From NCBI RefSeq assembly GCF_013359695.1, contig NZ_JABFMU010000025.1:1-64000 (forward strand): a stretch of DNA of 64,000 nt, read 5' to 3'. Origin of the DNA: Pseudomonas sp. C2B4. GTDB taxonomy: Bacteria > Pseudomonadota > Gammaproteobacteria > Pseudomonadales > Pseudomonadaceae. A program made the translations under genes and the position numbers. Below are positions 13,182 to 64,000 of the stretch, piece by piece (the first letter of the stretch is position 1; each line of letters opens with the position of its first letter). The notes beneath the pieces were generated by a model. That model had not been told where the DNA came from. It saw nothing but the letters and a program-made list of their open reading frames with translations, and made no database searches.

Positions 13182-13709
13182 CTATGAGTGTTCTTTCAAG
13201 GGGATGGTCCGCGGTCGCTCCAGCCAGGCACCTTCGCCATCAGGGACAATTTCGATCACATCGACTTGCGAGGCATTGATGGCGACGATCCGTCCGTCGT
13301 TGCGCCCCAGGTAATCTCCGACTTTCAGCCGATGCACCCCGCCTACCCCGCGCAACAGCGCAAAGGAGCCCGATGCATTGGAGATCGTGCCGACCATTTC
13401 AAACTGCTCGATGTTGAAACCTTCGAGGTACTGCTTGACCCGTGAGGGATCGGGTTTGACGTTGCGCGAGCCGTGCTTCTGACCCGCCAGGTCAACCCTG
13501 ACCTGCTGCGAAAACGGACTGCGCAGGTTGGCGGCGTTGTAGGTGAATGTCGGGTAAGACCGGAATGTCGGCGTTGGTTCAATCCTGCCCGGCGCACGCA
13601 GGCGCATTTCGTTCATGTAGGCGTCCAGATCACTGAAGTCATCACTGCCACCACATCCCGCAAGGACAGCCAACGCCACGACCGTGAAAACAACACGAAT
13701 CGGGCTCAT
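13182..13709 (-). CDS. pilP: Type IV pilus lipoprotein PilP
   Basis: PilP is an inner-membrane lipoprotein that links the PilN/PilO dimer to the PilQ secretin. The 175-residue product begins with a lipoprotein signal ending in LAGC (Cys19). An unstructured segment follows, then the beta-rich HR domain (about 85-165) that contacts PilQ N0. The start codon overlaps the pilO stop by 4 bases, which indicates translational coupling. Confidence 0.94.
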   Translation of the reverse strand: MSPIRVVFTVVALAVLAGCGGSDDFSDLDAYMNEMRLRAPGRIEPTPTFRSYPTFTYNAANLRSPFSQQVRVDLAGQKHGSRNVKPDPSRVKQYLEGFNIEQFEMVGTISNASGSFALLRGVGGVHRLKVGDYLGRNDGRIVAINASQVDVIEIVPDGEGAWLERPRTIPLKEHS

Positions 13710-14329
13710 GGATGCAGCCCCTTGTCGTTGTAGCGATAGGTCCTGGCCAGGATGCTCATGCGCAATTTGGGTCCGCCGTCGGGATTGACCGGCGCCAGGT
13801 CGAAATCATGCAGGGTGACAATGCGCGGCAGTCCGGCCACGCCACTGACGAAAGTGGCCAGGTCGTGATAGGTGCCGGTGACGGTAATCTGGATCGGCAG
13901 CTCGATGTAGAACGGCTGGGCAACCTCGGGCAACAGCTTGATTTCCTCAAACTCCAGGCCGCTGCCCAGGCCGGTTCGGGTGATGTCTTCCAGCAGGCCA
14001 GGCACTTCGGTATCACTGGGCAGTTGCCGCAACAGCACGCCAAAGGAGTTTTCCATCTCCCTCATCTGCTGGGAGTAAAGCTCCAGATTCGCCGCCATAT
14101 GCGCCTTGGTGGCGAACTGTTCCTTGAGGGGCGACTCTTCCTCGCGCTTGAGCTGTAGCTGGCTCTCAAGCTCGCTCGTGGAAAAGCTGTAACCGAGCGC
14201 CAGCACCAGCAGCATGACCAATGCGCCCACCAACACCTTGATCGCAGGCGGCCATGAACCGATGTTGTGGGTGTCCAGCTCGTTGATGTCGATCCCGCGC
14301 AGTCCTTCGATCCATGCGGACAGGCTCAT
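13706..14329 (-). CDS. pilO: Type IV pilus alignment protein PilO
   Basis: PilO pairs with PilN in the inner membrane to align the pilus motor with PilQ. The 207 residues show a short cytoplasmic start and one membrane helix (about 30-48, VLVGALVMLLVLALGYSF). A periplasmic coiled coil (about 52-100) and a ferredoxin-like fold follow. It overlaps both pilN and pilP by 4 bases. Confidence 0.94.
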   Translation of the reverse strand: MSLSAWIEGLRGIDINELDTHNIGSWPPAIKVLVGALVMLLVLALGYSFSTSELESQLQLKREEESPLKEQFATKAHMAANLELYSQQMREMENSFGVLLRQLPSDTEVPGLLEDITRTGLGSGLEFEEIKLLPEVAQPFYIELPIQITVTGTYHDLATFVSGVAGLPRIVTLHDFDLAPVNPDGGPKLRMSILARTYRYNDKGLHP

Positions 14330-14891
14330 TTTCCGTCCTCCACGGCGGCAGGCTGAGCCTGACGAACGGTCAACTGAAAGACGTTGGCCTGGTCCAGCTG
14401 GCCGGCGGTGGTTGCCTTGACTTCCGTCAGGCTGGGCGCATCGAACCAGTCCGATGCTTCCAGATTGCGCATCAGGTCGGAAACACGATTATTGGATTCT
14501 GCCGCACCGGTAATGGATAAGGTCTTGCCGGCCATTTTCACTTCCGTGAAATACACCCCATCGGGCAGGGTCCGTGCCAACTGGTCAAAAATTCGCCCGC
14601 TGATCGGTCGATTGCCTTGCAAGTCCTGGATGATGCGCATGCGCTCGACCAATTGCTGGCGACGAGCCTTGAGATCGCTGATCTGCTTGATCCGCTCGTC
14701 GACGACGGCGATCTGCTTGCCGATGTAATCGTTACGCGCAACCTGCCGGGCTAATGCATTATCGATCGCCTGATTGGCGATCAGCACCGCGCCCGCCGCA
14801 CCCAGCAGTACACCGAGCAGAATCAGCAAATAGCGCTTGCGACGCTGCTCGCGCAGCTCTTCGCGCCAGGGTAGAAGATTGATCCGCGCCA

Positions 14892-56573: not shown

Positions 56574-57377
56574 TTAGCGGTTGTAGTGCTTTTCGCCCCA
56601 GGCCAGCAGACCTTGCAGCAACTCCCTGAGCACCACCCGCGTTGGCTCCGCCAGATCCGCCCGATAACGGAACGGCTCGAACTCTTCCATGTAAGTGCAC
56701 TGGCCCAACTCCAGTTGCACGGCATGGATGTTTTCCGCCGGATTGCCGTAATGCCGGGTGATATGGCCGCCCTTGAAGCGTCCGTTCAGCACATGGCTGT
56801 AGTTCGGGTGCCCTGCGCAGATCGCTTCCAGTTGCGAAGCCAGCTGCGGATCGCAACTGGCGCCGTTGAAGGTGCCGAGGTTGAAATCCGGCAGCTTGCC
56901 GTCGAACAGGTGCGGGATCAGCGAGCGGATCGAGTGCGCATCGAACAGCAGCGCGTAGCCGAACTCGGCTTTAAGGCGCGCCAGTTCCTGCTGCAAGGTG
57001 CTGTGGTATGGCGTCCAGATCTGTTCCAGATAGGTCGCGCGCTCTTCCTTGGAAGGCTCCAGCCCTTCGCGGAACAACGGAACGCCGTCGAACAGCGTCG
57101 CCGGGTACAGGCCCGTGGTCGCACCGACGTACAAAGGTTTGTCGTCGGACGGACGGTTCAGGTCAATGACGAACCGCGAATACTCGGCGGCCAGGGTGCT
57201 GGCGCCCAGTTCGGCAGCGAAGTCGTACAGCTGCGGGATGTGCCAGTCGGTGTCCGGCAGGCTCTTGGCCTCAGGGATCAATCCGGCTTCGACCGCTGGC
57301 GTCAGACGCACACCGGCGTGGGGCATGCTGATCAGCAGCGGTACGCGGCCTTGTTTGAAGTTCAGAACCTTATCCAC
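56574..57377 (-). CDS. hutG: N-formylglutamate deformylase
   Basis: HutG releases formate and glutamate from N-formylglutamate, the last step of the five-step histidine route. The start is the GTG at 57377 (267 residues), with AGGAG 7 bases upstream. The family blocks are LLISMPHAGVRL, VIDLNRPSDD, LLFDAHSIRS and GGHITRHYG, with metal-binding Asp, His and Glu residues. It starts 10 bases after hutI. Confidence 0.95.
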   Translation of the reverse strand: MDKVLNFKQGRVPLLISMPHAGVRLTPAVEAGLIPEAKSLPDTDWHIPQLYDFAAELGASTLAAEYSRFVIDLNRPSDDKPLYVGATTGLYPATLFDGVPLFREGLEPSKEERATYLEQIWTPYHSTLQQELARLKAEFGYALLFDAHSIRSLIPHLFDGKLPDFNLGTFNGASCDPQLASQLEAICAGHPNYSHVLNGRFKGGHITRHYGNPAENIHAVQLELGQCTYMEEFEPFRYRADLAEPTRVVLRELLQGLLAWGEKHYNR

Positions 57378-57387
57378 AACTGCTCTC

Positions 57388-58593
57388 CTACAGGCTTGTT
57401 TCAACGCCGTGACGCACGACGCGTTTTTCCAGGTCACCGCCCAGCCAGTAAGACAGGTCGGCCGGACGATCGATTTGCCAGGCAACGAAATCCGCCACCT
57501 TGCCGGCCTCGATCGAACCGTGGGTGTCGGCCATGCCCAGCGCTGTCGCGGCATGAATCGTCGCGCCGGCCAGGGCTTCTTCCGGGGTCATGCGGAAACA
57601 GGTGCAGGCCATGTTCAGCATCAGGCGCAGTGACAGCGCCGGCGAGGTGCCGGGGTTGAGGTCGCTGGCGATGGCGATTTTCACGCCGTGCTTGCGCAGG
57701 GCTTCCATCGGCGGCAATTGGGTTTCGCGCAGGAAGTAGAACGCGCCCGGCAGCAACACGGCGACAGTGCCGGAGGCGGCCATGGCGATGGCGTCTTCTT
57801 CGGTCATGAATTCCAGATGATCGGCGGACAGGGCGTGGTAACGCGCCGCCAGGCTGGAACCGTGCAAGGACGACAACTGTTCAGCGTGCAGCTTCACCGG
57901 CAAGCCGAGTTGCTGCGCGGTGATGAATACGCGTTCGACCTGCGCAGGCGAAAACGCCAGGTATTCGCAGAACGCGTCGACCGCATCCACCAGCCCTTCG
58001 GCGGCCAGGGCCGGGAGCATTTCAGCGCAGATGTGATCGATGTAATCGTCGGCGCGATCCTTGTATTCCGGCGGCAGGGCGTGAGCGGCCAGGCAGGTGC
58101 TGCGTACGCTGATTGGCAGTTCGGCGCCGAGGCGACGGGCCACTCGCAACATCTTGCGTTCGTTGACCAGGTCGAGGCCGTAGCCGGACTTGATTTCGAT
58201 GCTGGTGACGCCGTCGCGCATCAGGCTTTTCAGGCGCTTGGCGGCGCTGGCGAACAACTCGTCTTCACTCGCGGCGCGGGTGGCGCGCACGGTACTGGCG
58301 ATGCCACCACCGGCAGCGGCGATTTCTGCGTAGCTGACGCCTTGCAGGCGCTGCTCGAACTCACCGCTGCGATTACCGCCGAACACCGTGTGGGTGTGGC
58401 AGTCGATCAGGCCCGGTGTAACCCAGGCCCCGTTCAAATCATTGACCGCCGGGTATTCGCCGGACGGCAGCTCACTGCGCGGGCCGACCCACTCGATATG
58501 CGCACCGGACGTCACGATGGCCGCGTCTTCGATGACCGAGTAAACGCCTTGCGCCATGGTTGCGACGTGGCAGTGTTGCCAGAGGGTTTTCAT
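57388..58593 (-). CDS. hutI: Imidazolonepropionase
   Basis: HutI hydrolyses imidazolonepropionate to N-formiminoglutamate. The 401-residue amidohydrolase has the metal motif [13 protein letters not shown] near 64-76. Further metal ligands are the His and Glu of [10 protein letters not shown] and SADHLEFM, and [10 protein letters not shown] holds the last Asp. The substrate segment [11 protein letters not shown] is typical. It is separated from hutH by a REP pair. Confidence 0.96.
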
Positions 58594-58693: not shown

Positions 58694-60226
58694 TTACAGG
58701 CTAGGCAGCAACTTCGCCGTGACCAGTTCGGTCAGGCAACGGCTCGCCAACAATTCACTGGCGGCATTGATGTCCGGCGCGAAGAAACGGTCCTTCTCGT
58801 AAAACGGAACTTCCTTACGCAGAATCGCCCGTGCCTGTTCCAGTTTCGGCGAGGTCTTCAGACCATTGCGCAAATCCAGACCCTGGGCTGCCGCCAGCCA
58901 TTCCACGGCCAGAATCCCACGGGTGTTCTCAGCCATTTCCCACAGACGCTTGCCAGCGGCCGGGGCCATGGACACGTGGTCTTCCTGGTTGGCGGACGTC
59001 GGCAGGCTGTCCACCGAATGCGGATGGGACAGGGCCTTGTTTTCGCTGGCCAGGGCCGCCGCAGTCACCTGGGCGATCATGAAGCCGGAGTTCACACCGC
59101 CGTTGGCCACCAGGAACGGCGGCAGTTGCGACATGTGCTTGTCCATCATCAGCGAGATGCGGCGTTCGCTCAGGGAACCGATTTCCGCGATGGCCAGCGC
59201 CATGTTGTCGGCGGCCATGGCCACCGGCTCGGCGTGGAAGTTGCCGCCGGAAATCACGTCGCCCTCTGCGGCGAACACCAACGGGTTGTCGGAGACGGCG
59301 TTGGCTTCGATCGCCAGCACTTCAGCGGCCTGGCGGAACTGGGTCAGGCAGGCGCCCATGACTTGCGGCTGGCAGCGCAGGGAGTACGGGTCCTGGACCT
59401 TTTCGCAATTCTCGTGGGAGTCGGACACTTCACTGCGCTCACCCAGCAAATCGCGATAAGCGGCAGCGGCGTCGATCTGGCCTTTCTGGCCACGGGCGGC
59501 ATGGATGCGGGCGTCGAACGGCGAGCGCGAACCCAACACGGCTTCAACGGTCAGGCCACCGAGGGCCAGGGCTCCGGCGAACAGGTCCTCGCCTTCGAAC
59601 AGACCGCGCAGGGCGAATGCGGTGGACACCTGAGTACCGTTGAGCAGCGCCAGGCCTTCTTTTGCGGCCAGGGTCAACGGGGTCAGGCCAGCGATTTTCA
59701 GCGCTTCGGTGGCTTCCATCCACTCGCCTTTGTAGCGCGCCTTGCCTTCACCCAGCAGCACCAGCGACATGTGTGCCAATGGCGCCAGGTCGCCGGAAGC
59801 ACCGACCGAGCCTTTCAATGGGATATGCGGGTAAACCTCGGCGTTGATCAGGGCGATCAGCGCGTCGATCACCACCCGGCGAATGCCGGAGAAACCGCGG
59901 CTCAGGCTGTTGACCTTGAGCACCATGACCAGGCGCACCAATGCGTCGCTGATCGGCTCGCCGACACCGGCGGCGTGGGACAGCACCAGCGAGCGCTGCA
60001 GGTTTTCCAGGTCTTCGCTGGCAATGCGGGTCGAGGCCAGCAGGCCGAAACCGGTGTTGATGCCGTAGGCCGTGCGGTTCTCGGCGAGGATCTGTTCCAC
60101 GCAAGCGACGCTGGCTTCGATCTGAGCCGAGGCGCTGTTGTCGAGGGTCAGTTTCACCGGCTGCTGATACACATCACGCAGTTGGGCGAGGGTCAGTTGG
60201 CCGGGAATCAGGTTTAGCGCAGTCAT
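58694..60226 (-). CDS. hutH: Histidine ammonia-lyase
   Basis: HutH deaminates histidine to urocanate. The 510-residue protein has the ASG triad (143-145, [12 protein letters not shown]) that cyclises to the MIO cofactor. Tyr54 lies in YGINTGFG, His84 in LSHAAG and Asn in LLNGTQ. The [10 protein letters not shown] segment carries the active-site Tyr and Arg, and QEDHVSM holds the catalytic Glu. It is complete and should be the active lyase. Downstream are hutI and hutG, upstream the MIO-less homologue. Confidence 0.97.
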
Positions 60227-60344: not shown

Positions 60345-61868
60345 TCAGTTCAAATTCGGCAACGTTTTTTGCAGCAACGCAGGGTCTTTCAAAACACCGG
60401 CAGCGGCAGCAATGTCTGGCGCCAGCCAACGGTCCTGATCGTAGGCAGGAACGCGCTCACGCAGCAGGCGCCACGCCGCATCGGTACCGGCGCCGAAGCG
60501 CTGCTCTTTCAGGAACTCAAACGCCTGGGCCGCCAACAGGTACTCGATGGCGAGGATCTGCGTGCAGTTTTCCAGCGCGCGATGCAGCTTCAGCGCGGCG
60601 TTGGTACCCATGCTCAGGTGATCTTCCTGCAGGCCCGAGGTGACGTAGTTGTCGAGCACCGCCGGTTGCGCCAGCTGGCGATTTTCCGCGCACAGCGAAG
60701 CGGCAACGTATTGCACGATCATCATCCCGGAGTTCACCCCCGGGTTGGCCACCAGGAATGCTGGCAGGCCGCTGACGTGCGGGTTGATCAGGCGATCCAG
60801 GCGACGTTCGGCGATGGAGCCGATTTCCGCCATGGCGATGGCCAGCAGGTCCGCCGCCAGTGCTACCGATTGACCGTGCGGGTTGGCCTGGGACATGACG
60901 CGGAAGTTGTCCGGCGTCCCCAGCAGCAACGGGTTATCCGTGCAGCCGTTGAGTTCGGTTTCGACTTGCTTGATCGCGTGGTCAAGCTGATCACGAGCTG
61001 CACCGTGCACCTGCGGGATCGAGCGGATGCTCAACGCATCCTGGGTGCGAATGCCTTTGCTCTGGGCAATCACTTCACTGCCGTCGAGCAGCGCCCGCAG
61101 GTTGATCCCGACCTGTTGCATGCCCGGATGCGGCTTGAGCGCGATGATCTCGGCGTCGAACGCAGCGATCTGGCCACGCTGGGCCTCGAAACTCATGGCA
61201 CTGATCACGTCAGCCCACTGCAGCAGGCGCGTGGCGTCGGCAATCGCCAGGCAGCTGAGGCCGCTCATGCACGGCGTGCCGTTGACCAGGCACAGACCGT
61301 CCTTGGCGCCGAGTTGAACCGGTTGCAGGCCTTCTTCCGCCAGCGCCTGTTGCGCCGAGACGACTTGCCCGCGATAGCTGACGTTACCGACGCCCAGCAA
61401 GGCGATGCTGATGTGGGCCATGTGGGTCAGGTAGCCGACCGAACCCTGGGAAGGCACTTGCGGGGTGATGCCGCGATTGAGCAGCGCCAGCAGCGCTTCG
61501 ACCACCCGGCGATGCACACCGGATTTGCCTTGGGTGAAGTTGAGGATTGCCGCACACATGATCGCGCGGGTCTGCTCGTCGGCCAACGGTGCGCCAACGC
61601 CGCAGGCGTGACTGAGCAAAGTATTGCGCGACAGCTGGCTGAGCTGTTCGTCCTTGAGCGAAACGTTGCACAGCGCGCCCAGGCCGGTGTTCACACCATA
61701 GGCACGCTCGCCGCTGGTGACGATGCGCTGGACGATTGCCTGGGCATTGTCGATACGTGCCCAGGCCTGCGCCGACAGCTCAAGCTGTGCGCCGTGACGG
61801 GCGACTGCAACCACATCCTGCCAACGCAACGAGGCATCGGCGATAACGATTTTTTCAGCCTGGGACAT
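60345..61868 (-). CDS. Histidine ammonia-lyase homologue lacking the MIO triad
   Basis: A 507-residue member of the aromatic amino-acid lyase family, intact over its whole length. I start at the ATG at 61868 (MSQAEK), with GAGG 6 bases upstream, not the ATG four codons before. The sequence keeps YGVNTG (57-62), LSHACG (85-90), LVNGT (194-198), PQVHGA and QEDHLSM. After GSVG (142-145) the next residue is Tyr146: exactly three residues, the Ala-Ser-Gly that forms MIO, are absent. The Tyr of the YSLR motif is Leu279. It should therefore lack ordinary lyase activity. From memory, a second, non-functional hutH copy was described in the P. fluorescens SBW25 hut locus. Confidence 0.9.
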   Translation of the reverse strand: MSQAEKIVIADASLRWQDVVAVARHGAQLELSAQAWARIDNAQAIVQRIVTSGERAYGVNTGLGALCNVSLKDEQLSQLSRNTLLSHACGVGAPLADEQTRAIMCAAILNFTQGKSGVHRRVVEALLALLNRGITPQVPSQGSVGYLTHMAHISIALLGVGNVSYRGQVVSAQQALAEEGLQPVQLGAKDGLCLVNGTPCMSGLSCLAIADATRLLQWADVISAMSFEAQRGQIAAFDAEIIALKPHPGMQQVGINLRALLDGSEVIAQSKGIRTQDALSIRSIPQVHGAARDQLDHAIKQVETELNGCTDNPLLLGTPDNFRVMSQANPHGQSVALAADLLAIAMAEIGSIAERRLDRLINPHVSGLPAFLVANPGVNSGMMIVQYVAASLCAENRQLAQPAVLDNYVTSGLQEDHLSMGTNAALKLHRALENCTQILAIEYLLAAQAFEFLKEQRFGAGTDAAWRLLRERVPAYDQDRWLAPDIAAAAGVLKDPALLQKTLPNLN

Positions 61869-61917
61869 CTTCAACCTCATGCGTACAACTTGAATATTGA
61901 TGCAGCTCTACCGCCGC

Positions 61918-62010: not shown

Positions 62011-62841
62011 TTAAACCACCGCCGCCCGCCGCTGCACGAACCGGTCGACATACTCATCCGCCGGCGAGTGCAGGATCTCCTTCGGCGTGCCGACCTGAAT
62101 CAGGCGGCCGTCCTTGAGGATCGCGATGCGGTTGCCGATGCGTACGGCCTCGTCGAGGTCGTGGGTGATGAAGACGATGGTCTTGTGCAGGGTCTTTTGC
62201 AGCTCCAGCAACTGGTCCTGCATCTCGGCGCGAATCAGCGGATCGAGGGCACTGAAGGCTTCGTCCATCAGGATGATGTCGGTGTCCGCCGCCAAGGCGC
62301 GGGCCAGGCCTACACGCTGACGCATGCCGCCCGAAAGCTGGTGCGGGTATTTGTTTTCGTAGCCCTTGAGGCCCACGGTGTTGATCCAGTGCAGTGCACG
62401 CTCGGTGCACATTTGCTTGCTCTCGCCACGCACTTTCAAGCCGTAGGCGACGTTATCCACCACGGTTTTGTGCGGCAGCAGGCCGAAGCTCTGGAACACC
62501 ATGCTGATCTTGCGCCGGCGAAATTCGCGCAGGGCTTCCATGTCGTATTGCAGGATGTCCACGCCGTCCACCAGGATCGCGCCGCTGGTCGGGTCGATCA
62601 GGCGATTGAAGTGGCGTACCAGGGTCGACTTGCCGGAACCCGACAGGCCCATGATCACGAAGATCTCGCCGCTGCCGATGCTCAGCGACAGGTCGTTCAC
62701 GCCGACCACGCAGCCGGTTTCGGCGAGCACCTGGTCCTTGGTCTTTTTCTGGCGAATCATTTCCAGCGCATCTTTGGAACGATTGCCGAAAATCTTGAAG
62801 ACGTTTTTGACTTCGATCTTGCTCACGGTTGCGTTGTTCAT
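62011..62841 (-). CDS. hutV: Histidine ABC transporter ATP-binding protein
   Basis: The 276-residue ATPase resembles ProV/glycine-betaine type importers. Features are the KIEVKNVFKIFG start, an insert with IRQKKTKDQVLAETGCVVGVND, Walker A GLSGSGKST, Q-loop VFQSFGLLPH, signature LSGGMRQRV and Walker B IILMDEAFSALD. Lacking C-terminal CBS domains, it is the short type. Its start overlaps the hutW stop by 4 bases. Assignment to histidine uptake is inferred from the hut operon. Confidence 0.9.
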   Translation of the reverse strand: MNNATVSKIEVKNVFKIFGNRSKDALEMIRQKKTKDQVLAETGCVVGVNDLSLSIGSGEIFVIMGLSGSGKSTLVRHFNRLIDPTSGAILVDGVDILQYDMEALREFRRRKISMVFQSFGLLPHKTVVDNVAYGLKVRGESKQMCTERALHWINTVGLKGYENKYPHQLSGGMRQRVGLARALAADTDIILMDEAFSALDPLIRAEMQDQLLELQKTLHKTIVFITHDLDEAVRIGNRIAILKDGRLIQVGTPKEILHSPADEYVDRFVQRRAAVV

Positions 62842-63689
62842 TTGCTCACCTCATGCCGTGCACGACCGTACGCCTGTGTAATGCGGTCGATTACCACTGC
62901 CAGAATCACGATCGCCAGACCGGCTTCCAGGCCACGTCCGACGTTGAGGGTCTGAATCCCCACCAGCACGTCTTCACCCAGGCCACGGGCACCGATCATC
63001 GAGGCGATCACCACCATCGACAGAGCCATCATGGTGGTCTGGTTGATCCCGGCCATGATGCTCGGCAGGGCCAGCGGCAGTTGCACGCCGAACAGTTGCT
63101 GCCAGCGGTTGGCACCAAAGGCGTTGATCGCTTCCATCACTTCACCGTCGACCTGGCGGATGCCCAGATCGGTCAGGCGGATCAGCGGCGGCGCGGCGTA
63201 GATCACGGTGGCGAAAATCGCCGGGACCTTGCCCAGGCCGAACAGCATCAGCACCGGGATCAGGTACACGAAGCTCGGCATGGTCTGCATGATGTCCAGC
63301 AACGGCATCAGCACCGAACGCAGGCGATTGCTGCGCGCCGAGAGAATGCCCAGCGGAATGCCGATGAGTACCGAGATGACGGTCGCCACCATCATCAGCG
63401 CCAAGGTTTGCATCAGCTTGTCCCAGAGGCCGACCGCACCCACCAGGAACAGCAAACCGACGATGACCGCCGTAGTCACCACTTTGCGGGTCGCGTGCCA
63501 GGCCACGCCGGCAACAATCGCCAGCATCAGCCACCAGGGCGCCGCGCGCAGCAGCCCTTCAAGATTGACGATGGCCCACAACAGGGTGTCGGAGATGTGC
63601 CGGAACACGTCGCCGTAGTTGGTGACCAGCGAATCGACCCAACCGTTGACCCAGTCGGCGATGGAAAAGGTAAAGCTTTCGGGAAACAT
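62838..63689 (-). CDS. hutW: Histidine ABC transporter permease
   Basis: The 283-residue membrane protein has a ProW-like layout: a hydrophilic N-terminus, two helices (about 50-90) and the BPD_transp domain with the EAA motif EAINAFGANRWQQLFGVQLP. Coupled to hutV by a 4-base overlap. It begins 70 bases after the binding-protein gene. The histidine specificity is inferred from context. Confidence 0.9.
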   Translation of the reverse strand: MFPESFTFSIADWVNGWVDSLVTNYGDVFRHISDTLLWAIVNLEGLLRAAPWWLMLAIVAGVAWHATRKVVTTAVIVGLLFLVGAVGLWDKLMQTLALMMVATVISVLIGIPLGILSARSNRLRSVLMPLLDIMQTMPSFVYLIPVLMLFGLGKVPAIFATVIYAAPPLIRLTDLGIRQVDGEVMEAINAFGANRWQQLFGVQLPLALPSIMAGINQTTMMALSMVVIASMIGARGLGEDVLVGIQTLNVGRGLEAGLAIVILAVVIDRITQAYGRARHEVSK

Positions 63690-63759: not shown

Positions 63760-64000
63760 CTACAAGGCCGCGTCGATCTTTTTGGCTGCGTCTTCGCTCA
63801 CCCATGCGTGCCAGACTTCAGGATGTTCCTTCAGGAAGATCTTGGCCAGTTTTGGCGACTCGATTCGCTCCTTGCTCATGCGACCCAGGTTCTGGTTCAG
63901 CAGGTCGATTGGAATGTTGACCTTATCCAGGACGGCCACCAGTTCCGGCGCTTCGTCGTGGAAAGTCTTGGACAGGCCGACCTTGATGGTGACGGTCTTG
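63760..64000 (-). CDS. hutX: Histidine ABC transporter substrate-binding protein (partial)
   Basis: Only the C-terminal 79 residues lie in the window; the gene runs off the right edge. The visible part reads KTVTIKVGLSKTF, then ...LVAVLDKVNIPIDLLNQNLG and ...FLKEHPEVWHAWVSEDAAKK before the stop. This is the C-terminal lobe of an OpuAC-type periplasmic binding protein. It is the first of the hutX-hutW-hutV transporter genes seen here. Confidence 0.8.
   Translation of the reverse strand, partial: KTVTIKVGLSKTFHDEAPELVAVLDKVNIPIDLLNQNLGRMSKERIESPKLAKIFLKEHPEVWHAWVSEDAAKKIDAAL

Follow-up and report, generated by a model that had tools for sequence, protein, structure and literature searches.

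We analysed a 64,000-nucleotide stretch of Pseudomonas sp. C2B4 (assembly GCF_013359695.1, contig NZ_JABFMU010000025.1, positions 1 to 64,000; hereafter the window), one end of which carries a histidine utilization (hut) operon with two neighbouring genes that resemble histidine ammonia-lyase (HAL). One of them, hutH1 (60345..61868, minus strand), encodes a 507-residue homologue of the aromatic amino acid lyases that lacks the residues forming the 4-methylideneimidazole-5-one (MIO) cofactor, and we propose that it may be a betaine (hercynine) trimethylamine-lyase. The other (58694..60226, minus strand) is a canonical hutH, recognized by its open reading frame (ORF) and its intact MIO loop. The operon runs on one strand in the order hutC, hutD, hutU, hutX, hutW, hutV, hutH1, hutH, hutI and hutG, with hutF divergent; HutI, HutG, HutU, HutC and HutF were named by NCBIfam models and HutD only by 39% similarity to an annotated HutD. 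Upstream of hutH1 on the same minus strand lie the genes of a betaine/choline-type ATP-binding cassette (ABC) transporter: hutV (62011..62841) for the ATPase and hutW (62838..63689) for the permease, with 65% and 64% identity to their counterparts in Agrobacterium tumefaciens Ach5, and the 3' part of hutX (63763..64000) for an OpuAC-type substrate-binding protein, a gene that extends beyond the window, to near contig position 64833. Downstream, also on the minus strand, are hutI (57388..58593; imidazolonepropionase, TIGR01224, 489.5 bits against a cut-off of 298) and hutG (56574..57554; N-formylglutamate deformylase, TIGR02017, 394.9 bits against a cut-off of 279), the start codon of hutG being uncertain as the TIGR02017 match begins at residue 63.

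The hutH1 frame is open over its full length (60345-61880, minus strand), giving 511 residues when counted from the most upstream ATG. The start at 61868 (Met5) is preferred because a stop codon lies just 5' of this position in 4 of 80 hutH1 relatives and because an AGG is found a few bases ahead of it. HutH1 passes the Pfam PF00221 model (561.1 bits, cut-off 27.3) as well as the NCBIfam hutH model TIGR01225 (547.8 bits, cut-off 539.15), neither of which requires the MIO triad for a match. BLASTP alignment with the adjoining canonical HutH gave 39% identity over 494 columns and a single three-residue gap at the MIO loop (GSVGY---LTHMAH), leaving the HutH1 loop GSVGYLTHMAH (61413..61445, minus strand) three residues shorter than the canonical one. 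No Ala-Ser-Gly occurs elsewhere in the HutH1 loop, and this triad is likewise absent from all 80 relatives that we kept. The original prediction, made from the sequence of the locus, of an intact HutH homologue without the triad was thus borne out by reading frame, profiles, alignment and relatives; its further statement that the gap removes exactly the cofactor residues held as to their number, whereas the identity of the missing residues, A-S-G or S-G-D, hinges on where Tyr150 is placed.

The relatives came from a scan of named genomes in which the best 80 of 581 loci were kept, a set biased to close relatives and no census. In all 80 the loop is present (LTH in 77, LSH in 3) and the frame spans at least 480 residues, and GSVGYLTHMAH is found in each of the 30 closest Pseudomonas orthologues, indicating that the missing triad is neither chance nor a sequencing error. 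A canonical gene with ASGDLAP is also present at 29 of these 30 loci. More distant orthologues carry slight variants of the loop (LAH, ISH, GSAGYLTHNAH), the triad being seen in none of them. Among 99 Pseudomonas genomes, this one included, 74 have a match to hutH1 of at least 57% identity and 25 do not; a class-wide profile search, which at E ≤ 1e-120 gave hits in 30 of 274 genomes, did not separate MIO-less from canonical genes (the genome's own canonical hutH scored 475 bits). The ratio of nonsynonymous to synonymous substitution rates (dN/dS; Nei-Gojobori, 390-codon core) had a median of 0.061 and a maximum of 0.143 over 435 pairs of 30 Pseudomonas hutH1 sequences, and was 0.027 for the canonical hutH neighbours (406 pairs, 29 sequences). 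Selection on hutH1 is clearly purifying, though somewhat weaker than on hutH. Together with the uniform loop and the intact frames, these values agree with the prediction that the gene is retained and leave the remaining rival of this kind, a decaying hutH duplicate heading for loss, with next to no probability: the missing triad and the 25 genomes without a match could be read that way, but the low dN/dS, the frames intact at all 80 loci and a clade that spans several proteobacterial orders apart from canonical HutH speak against it, and we rejected decay on dN/dS and intact frames.

HutH1 was placed among its relatives in a 52-row tree that leaves out the loop columns and comprises 39 MIO-less rows and 13 rows bearing the MIO triad. 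Thirty-two proteobacterial MIO-less proteins formed one clade with support of 100/100, apart from the canonical rows; its members come from Pseudomonas, Serratia, Pantoea, Erwinia, Sodalis, Prodigiosinella, Polaromonas, Rhodoferax, Burkholderia, Rhizobium, Sinorhizobium, Aminobacter, Agrobacterium and one further member of the Enterobacterales. HutH1 is therefore an old paralogue, and on the same clade we rejected a recent hutH duplication followed by loss of the triad.

Comparison of the active sites uses the numbering and residue roles of P. putida HAL, which we take as our reference. Tyr53, His83, Asn195, Gln277, Arg283 and Glu414 are identical in all 32 clade rows and in 11 of 11 canonical rows, so that HutH1 and HutH (EC 4.3.1.3; P. 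putida PDB 1b8f), which also share fold, length and 39-40% identity, are alike at these six positions. They differ, besides the triad, at two others: canonical Tyr280 is replaced by Leu in 31 clade rows and by Met in one, and canonical Phe329 by Pro in 26 and by Ala in 6, HutH1 itself having Leu283 and Pro334 at these sites. Thus the presumed base, carboxylate clamp and imidazole clamp are fixed while the MIO/amine side has changed, a pattern that would not be expected if the protein were inactive and retained for its fold. HutH1 is probably no pseudoenzyme but a preserved enzyme.

The gene is also linked to transport. In all 80 kept loci a same-strand ORF for an ABC-transporter ATPase ends at most about 1.2 kb 5' of the MIO-less gene, a count made without a control set; the ATPase, labelled by BLAST against our own reference set, is of the choline/betaine type in 69 loci and of the histidine/arginine type (polar amino acid transporter, PAAT) in 11. 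Canonical hutH accompanies the gene in 59 of the 80, and in 8 no hut gene was found within the fetched stretch. On R. etli p42e and in Sinorhizobium B11 a hut operon that includes canonical HutH has next to it a four-gene transporter cassette equipped with a separate HutC. In Sinorhizobium sp. B11 (locus L036) the MIO-less lyase gene is followed by solA (13501-14631), annotated as N-methyl-L-tryptophan oxidase, which hints at methylated amines in the pathway.

A pointer to the substrate came from A. tumefaciens Ach5, whose plasmid pAt carries a homologous four-gene X-W-V-lyase cassette in the same order as hutXWV-hutH1 (identity to the Pseudomonas proteins: substrate-binding protein 52%, permease 64%, ATPase 65%, lyase 44%). 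The cassette closes a same-strand run of ergothioneine-type (ert) genes, in which neighbours pass the NCBIfam models for S-methyl thiourocanate hydratase (975.8 bits, cut-off 880), ErtD hydantoin-5-propionate amidohydrolase 'ergo_util' (782.8 bits, cut-off 600) and ErtE N-carbamyl-L-glutamate amidohydrolase (576.1 bits, cut-off 520), while the adjoining molybdopterin S/N-oxide reductase stayed under its cut-off (968 against 1017.55 bits). These matches indicate that the related cassette serves an ergothioneine-type pathway, the substrate of which is a histidine betaine. On the tree, which did not include 6s7j, the Ach5 lyase lies inside the HutH1 clade at 100/100, other MIO-less lineages falling elsewhere. 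The two lyases share the clade, the missing residues and the cassette order, but differ in that they are 44% identical, the Ach5 gene sits among ert genes and hutH1 in a hut operon, and positions 151, 382 and 410 of HAL are Ala, Gln and Ala in Ach5 as opposed to His, Met and Ser in both HutH1 and canonical HutH. These three positions probably line the ring pocket.

The hydratase of the Pseudomonas operon is of the other kind. HutU is a true urocanate hydratase (1017.5 bits) that falls below both thiourocanate hydratase cut-offs (706 against 880 and 690 against 930), as are the HutU proteins encoded close to the MIO-less gene on the E. coli plasmid, in Rhodoferax and in R. etli, and no ert-like gene was recognized among the hut genes beside HutH1. 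The product expected in this operon is therefore plain urocanate, which points to hercynine as the betaine.

A precedent for such a reaction is ergothionase, an enzyme of the same fold reported to lack MIO and to release trimethylamine from ergothioneine (PMC13405746). Ergothionase (T. denticola, PDB 6s7j/6s7q; Burkholderia sp. HME13) and HutH1 both have the PF00221 fold and lack MIO; ergothionase acts on a histidine betaine, and HutH1 would probably do the same. They differ in that identity over the structural alignment is 28% and in that the HutH1 operon holds a urocanate hydratase, not a thiourocanate hydratase. T. denticola ergothionase is reported to depend on four catalytic residues. On this basis we consider it reasonably likely that HutH1 is a MIO-independent hercynine (trimethylhistidine) trimethylamine-lyase that feeds urocanate to HutU. 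The betaine-type HutXWV would import hercynine (N-alpha-trimethyl-L-histidine, histidine betaine), which HutH1 would bind as HutH binds histidine, with the imidazole held by the equivalents of His83 and Glu414 and the carboxylate by those of Arg283 and Asn195. The Tyr53 equivalent, Tyr61, may then act as the base removing the beta proton, and a 1,2-elimination would release trimethylamine. The shortened loop together with Leu and Pro/Ala could give the space of MIO, Tyr280 and Phe329 to the N-trimethyl group. An MIO electrophile is needed to expel an unactivated amine, whereas a quaternary trimethylammonium leaves by itself; the electrophile would be dispensable here because trimethylamine is already charged and a good leaving group. 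The urocanate formed would pass to HutU, HutI, HutF and HutG and would also be the inducer that relieves HutC. The residue roles follow the HAL literature, and we infer the substrate and the reaction of HutH1. In a review, hutH1 of P. fluorescens SBW25 is described as dispensable on histidine (PMC8871633), which fits a role on hercynine. No assignment of hercynine lyase activity to HutH1 was found in titles and abstract beginnings of the open-access papers listed, a search that the NCBIfam ert names imply missed work on ergothioneine utilization.

Structure prediction bears on the fold. The HutH1 model had a mean predicted local distance difference test (pLDDT) score of 86.8 and was weak at residues 278-282 and 411-421, both active-site stretches; the HAL active site is built from several subunits, and the model confirms the fold only. 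Foldseek aligned it to 6s7j_A with template modelling (TM) scores of 0.89-0.91, and VIA-align gave Z 42.4 for 6s7j and 44.8 for the best HAL, the members of the family lying close together. Fold comparison does not separate HAL from ergothionase. No NCBIfam trimethylamine lyase model appeared among the matches of eight MIO-less proteins scanned.

Several observations weigh against a hercynine lyase. HAL and aminomutase entries rank above 6s7j in Foldseek, and a sequence search against solved structures gave 332-358 bits for HALs and 215 for 6s7j. The partner transporter belongs to the histidine/arginine family, not the betaine type, in the 11 loci mentioned, and the binding proteins scanned in R. 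etli, B. pyrrocinia and Erwinia E602 plasmids are of PAAT type, so that the transporter type is not constant. P. fluorescens HutXWV is reported to take part in histidine uptake (PMC8871633), and the ergothioneine transporter EgtU hardly binds hercynine and discriminates strongly against it (PMC9732360), indicating that betaine transporters do not automatically accept hercynine. Residues are less strict in other MIO-less lineages: at position 195 Klebsiella has Gly and Halocatena has Ser, and Halocatena retains Phe329. Finally, the idea that the MIO-less gene replaces HutH, suggested by several hut clusters that seemed to lack hutH, failed for whole genomes: all 13 genomes checked, which were non-Pseudomonas or unusual ones, also had a canonical-type HutH match (54-83% identity; broken into pieces in two of the genomes), the loop being ASG in all four whose loop was inspected, and the Pantoea canonical hutH proved to lie just outside the stretch first examined. 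The placement of HutU was mixed in six genomes, being near the MIO-less gene in two, which have canonical hutH on a different contig, near both genes in one, near canonical hutH in one, on a third contig in one, and present as two broken copies in one.

We weighed three further explanations against these data. HutH1 could be a MIO-less amine lyase with hercynine as a minor substrate and a different histidine betaine or a methylated histidine as the main one (ergothioneine, S-methyl-ergothioneine, ergothioneine sulfonate, N,N-dimethyl or ring-methylated forms). Ergothionase (PMC13405746) provides the precedent, the related Agrobacterium cassette sits within an ergothioneine-type cluster, and in Sinorhizobium B11 the gene behind the lyase resembles N-methyl-tryptophan oxidase; yet HutU of this operon and of three other clusters is a true urocanate hydratase under the thiourocanate cut-offs, no ert-like gene was recognized among the hut genes beside HutH1, and at positions 151, 382 and 410 HutH1 agrees with HutH, not with the Ach5 member. 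The curated-model matches of the Ach5 cluster and of HutU thus strengthen hercynine as the substrate and weaken this alternative, which we regard as unlikely.

The original prediction had favoured a retained pseudoenzyme, namely a ligand sensor or a partner of HutH in mixed tetramers, and a catalytically dead paralogue serving as regulator, structural partner of HutH or sensor of histidine or urocanate would agree with the absent MIO, with canonical hutH at the same locus in 59 of the 80 kept loci and with a dN/dS twice that of hutH. Against it stand the residues for base and substrate binding (Tyr53, Arg283, His83, Glu414, Asn195), fixed in 32 of 32 rows while the MIO/amine side changed, the transporter linkage, the transporter-plus-lyase cassettes without a hut gene in the fetched stretch at 8 of the 80 loci, and an E. 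coli plasmid homologue, MIO-less and from a different lineage, for which the DNA searches revealed no HutH partner. We find a dead paralogue quite improbable; among the options raised at the outset, residue pattern and transporter linkage favour a non-MIO reaction. A back-up histidase deaminating histidine without MIO would explain why ring and carboxylate residues are as in HutH and why 11 of the 80 loci have a histidine/arginine-family transporter, but class I lyases are established to need MIO for ammonia loss. By synteny with PA7 we take PA5093 to be the HutH1 orthologue of P. aeruginosa, so that the paralogue is expected to be present there and phenotypes of PA5093 'hutG' mutants need care. 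In a P. aeruginosa study, which labels PA5093 hutG, cells without PA5098 are reported as defective on histidine (PMC12772324). These points make a back-up histidase very improbable.

Outside the HutH1 clade we found four further kinds of MIO-less genes, namely those of Klebsiella/E. coli plasmids, of Priestia, of Halocatena and of a GSVGYLAVEGH type in Pseudomonas and a deltaproteobacterium, which together with a Rhizobium GSIGAAD gene are placed elsewhere in the tree with mostly poor support. The MIO-less state needs four changes on the tree, in which Klebsiella, Halocatena, Priestia and the GSIGAAD gene have long branches, and the tree does not tell one loss of the triad from several. Leu280 is also found in the genes from Klebsiella, Priestia and Halocatena, and both the Klebsiella/E. 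coli plasmid genes and the Halocatena gene have an OpuAC-type transporter next to them, which speaks for the hercynine proposal. The GSVGYLAVEGH type, with Tyr280 and Phe329 in place, probably represents something else. Genes of this type occur in two Pseudomonas genomes (L041, L043) and on a plasmid of Deltaproteobacteria bacterium Smac51 (L161), where the gene comes after a sodium:solute symporter. A Halocatena marina plasmid (L163, 685-5479) holds an archaeal MIO-less lyase homologue whose loop reads GGSTDDLGANAH and which immediately follows an ABC transporter of the glycine-betaine type. The Gram-positive relative, on a Priestia megaterium plasmid (L067, 2980-4518), has GSLGYLNHQAH and follows two genes for transporters of the major facilitator superfamily. 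On Rhizobium leguminosarum pRL1 (L062, 7992-9497) a HutH homologue with GSIGAAD where GSVGASGD is expected lies immediately behind a hutC of its own, with an ABC transporter of the phosphonate type nearby. The C2B4 genome itself has a third PF00221 gene with ASG intact (contig C66, locus L003, 1312-3027), just after an ORF that by eye resembles a lipid-A-type acyltransferase; it may be an aromatic amino acid lyase that belongs to a pigment cluster.

In the plasmid lineage, E. coli pKL53-L carries hutG, hutI, a permease, hutU, an OpuAC-type transporter, the MIO-less lyase, hutD, hutC and formimidoylglutamate deiminase, and tblastn revealed only one PF00221-like place in the record, the MIO-less one, which in this hut cluster is the only visible candidate source of urocanate. 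Clusters of this type are those of loci L061, L069, L070 and L164, on plasmids of Klebsiella and E. coli. The plasmid gene is matched by 203 PLSDB records, of which 191 are from Klebsiella, 10 from Raoultella and 2 from Escherichia; in 163 the match covers at least 80% of the gene. Among 5426 E. coli genomes, 2 have the plasmid gene and 11 others canonical hutH DNA, in searches that reach about 65-70% identity and could miss more distant hutH. That the HutH1-like 'HutH' proteins of pseudomonads, enterobacteria, burkholderias and rhizobia form a family of hercynine trimethylamine-lyases, and that the Klebsiella/E. coli plasmid lineage does the same beside a hut cluster lacking canonical HutH, is a broader claim toward which we lean only slightly.

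hutH1 is common in the Pseudomonas hut operon, where it is annotated as histidase and reported to be dispensable on histidine. In a study of biocrust, histidine betaine was depleted in soil water, yet the isolates of that study did not take it up (PMC4595634). If our proposal is true, a set of mis-annotated 'histidine ammonia-lyases' would gain a function, and the hut pathway would break down histidine betaine in addition to histidine, giving soil bacteria a way to use the betaine. It would also add an overlooked candidate source of bacterial trimethylamine, Klebsiella plasmids included.
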